Positions 58,344 through 61,300 of a stretch of DNA of 64,000 bases are shown one piece after another; position 1 is the first letter of the stretch; the number at the start of each line of letters is the position of its first letter. The notes under the pieces were generated by a model. That model searched no databases, had not been told where the DNA came from, and saw only the letters and a list, made by a program, of their open reading frames with translations. The translations under genes were made by a program, and so were the position numbers. Origin of the DNA: Rhodamnia argentea (Eukaryota; Streptophyta; Magnoliopsida; Myrtales; Myrtaceae); contig NC_063152.1 of NCBI RefSeq assembly GCF_020921035.1, positions 31,991,903 through 32,055,902 on the forward strand. Reading direction: 5' to 3'.

Positions 58344-61300
58344 ATGGCGAGCGTGTCGAACGCAGTGTCGCTGAAGCCCGGGCTCTTCCTGCGGCGTCCC
58401 GAGTCTTCCGCTCTCGGTCTGACTCCGCGGCGTGCTTCGATCGGGCTCGGGTGCTTCCGGAGGAGCTATGTGGCCGCTGCTTTTGCCAATGAGAACAGAG
58501 AGTGAGCGAGGCTTTTTGAGTTCTTAATTTCCCGCTCTGATGTGGTTCGAGTTTTGGTTGAGTTTTTGGACTTGTCTGTTTAAGGTTCGTGATCGTTGGC
58601 GGTGGAAATGCCGCTGGTTACGCAGCTTGGACTTTCGTCGAGCATGGCATGGCCGATGGAAGGCTCTGTATCGTTTCGAAAGAGGTGATGTCGCTGCTTC
58701 GTCCTGTCTCGTATGATGATGTTTGTTGAGGAATTCAGCAGTGAGTCTCAGATGGACATTGTGCTCTCTCTTTCCTGCAGGCTCATGCACCCTACGAGCG
58801 TCCTGCTTTGACCAAAGGCTACCTGTTTCCTTTAGATAAGAAGCCTGCTCGCTTACCTGTACGATCAATGCGCTTTATTATTTCCCGTTCCCCCATGGCT
58901 ACTGCTTCATATTGCCTTGGATGATGGGTTTCTGAGATATGACTTTCTGACATTTGAATTCAATAGGCTATTTAGATTATGTTTGCTGTTGATATATACA
59001 TGTCTGGTTGGTGCATTAAGAGATTCCAGTCCTTTTGAGAATTATTCAACACTATGATAATGTTATAGGATGTTATATATCACGAGATAATGAGCTTTGC
59101 TTGCGATACATTGGTACTGCGAATAGCTATTTAATCTAGAATTGAAACTATGGGTTTTGATTGGTATAGGGTTTTCACACTTGTGTTGGTTCTGGGGGAG
59201 AGAGGCAAACTGCAGAATGGTACAAAGAGAAAGGGATTGAGGTACTCCTTTTGAGATCATGGGGCTCCTGCTCTCTCTCTCTATTTGATTGGCTCCTAAT
59301 ATTTAGAATGTTTTCTGCCATGTTCAGATGTTTTATGAAGATCCAGTGACAAGTATTGATATCGATAAACAAACTTTGACTACTGATTCTGGCAAGCTTC
59401 TTAAATATGGAGCACTTATAATTGCAACTGGTTGCACAGCTTCAAGGTATCTCTAATTGCAGCATGTTTTCTAGTTCAAGGAGTGCTTTCAACCCTGCCA
59501 ACATCTGTAAACAAGTGGGCATAATGAACTGTTCTTACTCATCTTAATCTTAGATTACCAGAGAAAATTGGAGGAAACCTTACTGGCGTACACTATATCA
59601 GAGATGTTGGAGATGCTAACTCACTTATATCATCCTGGGTATGGATTAACTCACTTATATCATCCTGGGTATGGATCATCACCCTATTTTTGCATCATCT
59701 CACTCTACTTGCTTATAGCTTCTTTTCGGTATTTCTTGCCTCACTGCTTCTGTTCTAAAGAATTTGTATTGTAGGAGCCTGACTGTTAATACCATCGTGA
59801 TTTTCCATCGTAATGACGGAGCATGAACATCAAAGCAAAATTATGGTTACTTATCTCGAGAAAACAATTGTTGGTTATGAACCGTCCAATAGAATTTTCT
59901 TTTTAAGGAAAAGAAACTCTTGAATGAATTGCTCTGGCTGTTCCCTGGAAAATCTCCAGCTATTTTCGCTATTCATTTATAGTTGGCAAATAATGGTACA
60001 CCAGGTATGCTTGTATGACTTAGCAGCTTCTTTTCTTGTGGTTGTGTGATTCCGTTAGGAATGGGCATGGAGATCATGTTTCCTGTCCCCGCTGTGCGAA
60101 GTAAAACCTGCCCCGTGCGAGGCGGGGGATGGGGCTGTTTTGCCTTTGTGAGGCAACGGTGCCCCGCGGGGTACTATGAACGCGCTTGATGTAGAACTTT
60201 TACTGAAAAATACTATCTTTTTTGTGGTCATTTTACAATATGCCTGATTAGTTTGTTTTACGGAGTCAAACAAACTTCAACCTTCACTCTTACCAAAAAA
60301 AAAAACAAACTTCAACCTTCACCTTTACCCAAAAAAAAAAAAAAAAAACTTCAACCTTCACAAAATAGTTGATGTTAGACAACGTGAAGATGAGAAATAT
60401 GGAAAACCATTGTTCCACATTGTTTATCTAGAAAACTTATCATGCTCGTGTCTCTTATAAAAGTAAGACTTGTAGTTGCACGGATTCTCTTTAAGATTTG
60501 AAGTTGTTCTCGGGTTTTTCTTTTCAAATTTTTTATACAAATAAATAAATATAATACTTTAACTATGATATATGCACGGGGCGGATTTGCGGGGCCGGAC
60601 AGCGCTAATACTGGCCCTGCCCCCATGCCCTGCCTCTTGCCCCACGGGGCATTGGCCCTGGTCGGGGTGTTTACCCGCGGGGTACAGATTCCCTGCACCT
60701 CATGCCCATTCCTAGATTCTGTGAGTCCTAAAATTCCAATCACATTATACCAGAGAGGAACATCATGCTACCTGGAACACTGGGGAAAACCTCCTGCGTC
60801 CTTTTTTGCAGTCTAGTTCTGTGATTAAGCTTTTGTCTCTAAACCAAATCAACTGGGATAAAGGCTCGGACCTGTTTAGTACTTGGTGCCTTGGATTTTC
60901 TCCTTTTCCAAGAACAATTTGACTTGGTGATCAGATCTGTACATAAAGCTTTCTTGGAGTTCGTAAAAAAATTTAAAAATATGAGGTTCCATAAGCACTG
61001 GCTGAAAAAGAAAGAGATAGCCTAAGCTTCATTTTCATCTTCTCTGGATTTCTGTTGTCCATAGATAACATGGCTTACTTTAATTATTCATAGAAGTTCG
61101 TTCTTGCTTTATAGGAGAAGGCAAAGAAATTGGTTGTTGTAGGTGGGGGGTATATTGGTATGGAGGTTGCTGCAGCAGCTGTTGCTTGGAAGCTCGACAC
61201 AACTGTAAGTTGAATCATATTCTGCTAACAATTTGATTGTTGAATCTGTTCAGAAAGCCTTGATACATGAGAATCAACAGGTTTGGCTTGCCTATGTGTA

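Follow-up and report, generated by a model that had tools for sequence, protein, structure and literature searches.

An exact 30-bp tandem duplication across a splice donor gives a monodehydroascorbate reductase gene of Rhodamnia argentea two identical in-frame 5' splice sites

A monodehydroascorbate reductase (MDHAR) gene in a 64-kb stretch of the Rhodamnia argentea genome (C3:31991903-32055902, hereafter the window) carries an exact, head-to-tail tandem duplication of 30 bp across the boundary between exon 6 and intron 6. The two units, at positions 59617-59646 and 59647-59676 of the forward strand, are identical at 30 of 30 bases (period 30, 2.0 copies), and each is made of 22 exonic and 8 intronic bases of the junction. 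The duplication thereby provides the gene with two identical splice donors in the same reading frame. We consider it probable that a single tandem duplication, following the doubling of a larger segment, produced this arrangement, that the first donor is mostly used and yields a 488-residue enzyme, that the second unit is inert intron sequence and that the second donor is of minor use.

Exon 6 (59554-59638) is 85 nt long when it ends at donor 1, after 59638, and 115 nt long when it extends to donor 2, after 59668. Both donors read TCCTGG/GTATGGAT, with GTATGG starting at 59639 in the first unit and at 59669 in the second, and they are spaced by 30 nt. Their common acceptor (TATAG/GAG) precedes 61115, so that intron 6 (59639-61114) measures 1476 nt from donor 1, the second unit then being intronic, and 1446 nt from donor 2. 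Two frame-compatible GT donors competing for one acceptor constitute, as far as sequence alone defines it, an alternative 5' splice site. Translation of the spliced models showed that use of donor 2 inserts 30 nt, or 10 residues, between ...DANSLISSW and EKAKK..., and leaves the frame open as far as the stop at 63893 that donor 1 also reaches, giving a protein of 498 residues. The first-pass annotation had proposed a perfect 30-bp tandem duplication creating two identical in-frame 5' splice sites, the first leading to a protein of family-standard length and the second adding exactly 30 nt without closing the frame; comparison of the units, the exon model and the translations bore out each of these points. 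No further exact match to the unit was found on the forward strand of the window.

The gene occupies the 3' end of the window (58344-63893, forward strand), with an intact reading frame distributed over 16 coding exons, and all 15 of its introns are GT-AG. It is a monodehydroascorbate reductase: the 488-residue form contains the Pyr_redox_2 domain (PF07992, 196.2 bits for a cut-off of 26.1) and the MDHAR C-terminal domain (PF21791, MDHAR3-like_C, 72 bits for a cut-off of 27), both above the curated thresholds, and the five best-matching proteins of solved structure, judged by their names or by the papers describing them, are plant MDHARs. The predicted protein has an N-terminal extension of about 50 residues and presumably resembles the chloroplast/mitochondrial (class I) enzyme of Arabidopsis. 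On the basis of this extension, a putative targeting sequence, and of this resemblance, it looks like a class I chloroplast/mitochondrial MDHAR. A protein search of the genome (346.66 Mb, 74 contigs) gave 38 matches, the best candidates alone being scored. Those outside the 12.3-kb segment described below were all on C8 and C1, and all were distant, with pieces 30-68% identical. Among the genes found by our searches, the window copy is the only intact MDHAR of its type.

From -22 to +8, a span that includes every U1-pairing base, the two donors do not differ. The calculated U1 pairing energy is -5.9 kcal/mol for each of them, which ranks fourth best among the 15 introns of the gene, and U1 pairing was rejected as a tie-breaker since it does not differ between them. 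Local RNA structure was rejected likewise, as accessibility was equal across five local folds (0.21-0.22 unpaired per donor). Neither U1 pairing nor local folding thus revealed a sequence feature distinguishing the donors and, because they are identical, context is expected to decide which one is chosen.

Classical experiments, as quoted in PMC9225289, favour the intron-proximal donor, which is donor 2 here. In a designed human library, the first donor was predominantly used when both were consensus or of equal strength and, where it was not, sequence outside the donors was responsible (PMC6783452). PMC9225289 describes a preference for the upstream donor in about 60% of human transcripts with near-equal donors, which increases beside a long downstream intron, and a preference for the downstream donor in about 60% of events taken without a strength filter. 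In the same source, all five human minigenes in which two strong, identical donors were separated by 52 nt used the upstream one exclusively; of four minigenes given very weak donors, two kept the upstream preference, and the larger exons of the other two were mostly skipped. The MDHAR gene combines a short upstream intron 5 (59447-59553, 107 nt) with the 1476-nt intron 6, an architecture favouring the upstream site, and we therefore expect donor 1 to dominate. This expectation is built on rules derived from human cells, and plants, which may lean more on intron definition, are its main uncertainty.

If the intron-proximal donor 2 were the main site instead, the enzyme would usually carry 10 more residues ahead of the NAD(P)-binding GGGYIG strand, and the duplication would amount to an exon extension and not to an alternative form. 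The insert is hydrophobic (mean of 0.52 on the Eisenberg scale), contains two Trp and repeats the end of what we presume to be a helix. Alignment with rice MDHAR places it near residue 158, about a dozen residues before GGGYIG, and hence within the NAD(P)-binding region, which covers residues 125-264 of the rice structure (PMC5031999). The first-pass annotation had located it between the FAD-binding and NAD(P)H-binding domains, a position that this alignment does not support. Two other MDHAR loci aligned over this region differ in length by only 2 residues, at a nearby site, and an addition of such composition to a region that varies so little argues against its presence in the main product. 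The domain scores of the 498-residue form (191.6 bits for PF07992 and 71.9 bits for PF21791) show a small drop that is uninformative on activity. Loss of the class I enzyme in Arabidopsis had a "negligible phenotype" in the authors' words, so that an altered enzyme could persist; however, the same mutant retained only about half of its shoot activity and suffered more damage to photosystem II under high light (PMC8615211). The identical strength of the donors, the open frame of the insert, the classical proximity rule and the downstream preference in unfiltered human events all leave room for dominance of donor 2, whereas the data on donors of equal strength and on long downstream introns point to the upstream site (PMC6783452, PMC9225289). 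Taken with these data, a main role for donor 2 is possible but unlikely.

Substantial use of both donors, as favoured by the first-pass annotation, would let one gene supply two versions of the enzyme, possibly under the control of splicing factors or stress. The presence of two identical in-frame donors is what such a system would start from, but the minigenes with identical strong donors 52 nt apart took the upstream one only (PMC9225289) and we found no sequence feature that separates the two donors. We hold substantial use of both donors to be quite improbable, and predominant use of donor 1 remains our preferred reading. The first-pass annotation also called the repeat a ready-made alternative-splicing polymorphism; for the one assembly covered here, in which the genome search described below met this locus and its sister only, variation among individuals is a conjecture.

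A genome search with a 301-bp query taken round the repeat returned two places, its own locus and C3:32063674-32063944, the latter being 30 bases shorter. This second place belongs to a sister gene (C3:32062516 onward), located 12,270 bp downstream, outside the window, with its one donor after C3:32063812 (position 3813 of L003, a stretch that holds the sister gene), whose alignment with the window copy reveals a single 30-bp unit with matching flanks; a substitution at 59610 is the sole other difference in the 200-odd aligned bases round the unit. Both genes lie in a tandem segment present in two copies of about 12.3 kb, each made of an MDHAR gene with the roughly 6.5 kb that follow it. The pair of copies extends from C3:32050246 to about 32074600, which in window coordinates starts at 58344 and runs past 64000. 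The two-copy segment holding the gene and the sister gene with its single unit are new observations. The 8.7 kb examined past the sister gene contained no third copy of the segment. The genes are about 97% identical, and the intergenic downstream parts 91-93% identical in their three longest pieces. When positions 58100-64000 were aligned with the sister copy, 200 of 5816 positions differed, 31 of them in the first 200 bases, which precede the gene; the gene itself differs at 29 of 1444 exonic and 135 of 4021 intronic positions. Intron 6 also contains an imperfect 39-bp tandem array of 2.5 copies (window 60268-60361), and near 60295 the sister gene is shorter by 43 bp.

The unduplicated state thus exists in a relative, this one sister copy setting the polarity, and its single unit supports a derived state for the duplication. 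The repeat most likely arose in the window copy once the segment had doubled, one duplication event being the simplest history. The distribution of differences along the gene is consistent with this order. Intron divergence is 8/736 (1.1%) in 58344-59699, which includes the repeat, and 127/3285 (3.9%) in 59700-63893 (Fisher p = 3.6e-5, the split at 59699/59700 having been picked after inspection of the divergence profile). This suggests that the 5' part of the gene (window 58344-59791) was recently homogenised between the copies, presumably by gene conversion, and that the repeat arose afterwards, the difference in unit number being younger still. Alternatively, the repeat could be older than the gene doubling and the sister gene could have lost one unit by slippage, a history compatible with any pattern of donor use. 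Direct repeats can contract and there is one sister gene alone for comparison; however, two events would be needed in place of one, and the low divergence of the probably homogenised 5' part speaks for a recent difference. We judge such a loss improbable and retain a single gain in the window copy.

The first-pass annotation had also reasoned that the units are identical and the event thus recent. The identity stands, but the conclusion does not follow from it: with 30 sites, zero differences are expected in about 36% of cases at a K of 0.034, the mean of the gene copies, and still in about 9% at a K of 0.08. Dating by unit identity was rejected, 30 sites being too few to be informative, and the sister gene provides a better bound.

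The sister gene is apparently broken. Its exon 10 contains a 296-bp insertion made of a 291-bp element (L003:6384-6674) and a 5-bp target duplication, GTCCA. Besides 87-bp terminal direct repeats with 2 differences between them, the element shows TG...CA ends together with a purine tract and what we take to be an initiator-tRNA primer site, the make-up of a TRIM-like retroelement. In addition, exons 7 and 13 each show a 1-bp indel relative to the window copy, and both of these are possibly sequencing errors because they fall within homopolymer runs.

Normal constraint on the window copy cannot be taken for granted either. Between the two copies we counted 22 nonsynonymous and 7 synonymous coding differences, giving a dN/dS of 1.03 with the gapped codon left out. 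The window protein has an unusual W at residue 68 (codon 58628-58630), a site occupied by R in the sister protein as well as three solved MDHAR chains, and an unusual A at residue 371, which is V in the sister and in all three other loci; at residues 299 and 461, the residue of the sister is found in two of the three other loci. Conversely, it is the sister that departs from the three solved chains at residues 84 and 102, and from all three other loci at 361. W204 (codon 59636-59638), at the end of exon 6, is common to both copies, while two other aligned MDHAR loci have Met or Ile. Given this dN/dS and odd residues in both copies, we do not claim normal constraint, and the window copy may have escaped it, which weighs against our preferred reading. 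That its frame is open argues only modestly for function: disregarding the repeat, the copies differ by 12 intronic indels, of which 11 are not multiples of three and, from these indels and a stop fraction of 0.043, we calculated by hand that about 1 in 14 neutral copies would be free of frameshifts and stops.

To place the repeat among similar events, a tandem scan (unit of 12-120 bp, simple repeats removed) was applied to 200 kb of C3, sampled as 20 pieces of 10 kb, and to the window. It detected one perfect complex tandem duplication in the 200-kb sample and one in the 64-kb window, the latter being the MDHAR repeat. The rate of perfect tandem duplications is thus several per Mb, an order of magnitude since it is based on two events. 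With an assumed number of about 100,000 donors in a plant, around ten or more duplications of this kind would be expected to cross a donor in each genome, prior to selection, and the probability for a length that is a multiple of three and free of stops is roughly 1/5, as estimated by hand. We infer that a perfect 30-bp repeat is far outside chance. The repeat is known from one assembly, but an assembly error is very improbable, as the window contains no N, a complex perfect 30-bp unit is an unlikely product of homopolymer errors and this assembly contains few perfect repeats (one in the 200-kb sample).

At neither end of the repeat do the flanking bases match the unit, so that microhomology is absent. 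Such an exact head-to-tail copy fits a staggered break repaired by fill-in end joining, a process that makes small tandem duplications of less than 100 bp (PMC8355091, which refers in its introduction to studies of natural insertions in humans and plants). The MDHAR repeat resembles the duplications described there in being an exact copy of tens of bases, and is distinctive only in having landed across a splice donor. We thus propose that the 12.3-kb segment with the MDHAR gene first doubled in tandem, and that fill-in end joining at a staggered break may then have copied, in one event, 30 bases of the exon 6/intron 6 junction in the window copy, 22 from the end of the exon and 8 from the start of the intron. 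The upstream donor would be used in most transcripts, giving the standard 488-residue enzyme; the second unit would remain as inert intron sequence, where the mutation could be tolerated, and donor 2 would give a minor in-frame form with 10 additional residues.

Local duplication at a junction has been implicated in intron gain and sliding in Drosophila, with a spacing of 30 nt in two of the tandem-duplication cases, but intron gain by this route needs a duplicated AG/GY proto-splice site (PMC2891723), which the MDHAR unit does not contain. We rejected intronisation or intron gain from the repeat, as the 30-bp unit has no AG: no new intron can form, and at most one border moves. The arrangement is closer to alternative tandem 5' splice sites, in which two donors compete for one acceptor and the exon is extended in frame (PMC2423196, PMC6783452); in contrast to the sites described as enriched in PMC2423196, which lie three to six bases apart, the MDHAR donors are themselves duplicated and identical over 30 bp, and are known from sequence. 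With the class I enzyme AthMDAR5 (PMC8615211) the gene shares the enzyme family, the domains and a long N-terminal extension, whereas here there are two tandem gene copies, one apparently broken, with a Trp at the end of exon 6 in both and a duplicated donor in one.

Among the papers listed, no natural plant case of a duplicated splice donor was recognised by title or abstract, and one may exist in print. Two donors identical over 30 bp and 30 nt apart, beside a sister gene with a single donor, constitute a natural competition experiment on whether plants use the first or the intron-proximal donor at equal strength, a point where the older animal data conflict with the newer. Apart from this value, the duplication is an ordinary small mutation at an interesting site. 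It is a long shot that the only intact organellar MDHAR found makes two enzymes, one with a duplicated 10-residue segment in its NAD(P) domain, through competition between identical donors; if it did, the pair of genes would offer a natural and nearly isogenic plant test of the donor-proximity rule, with an exon border caught in the act of moving.
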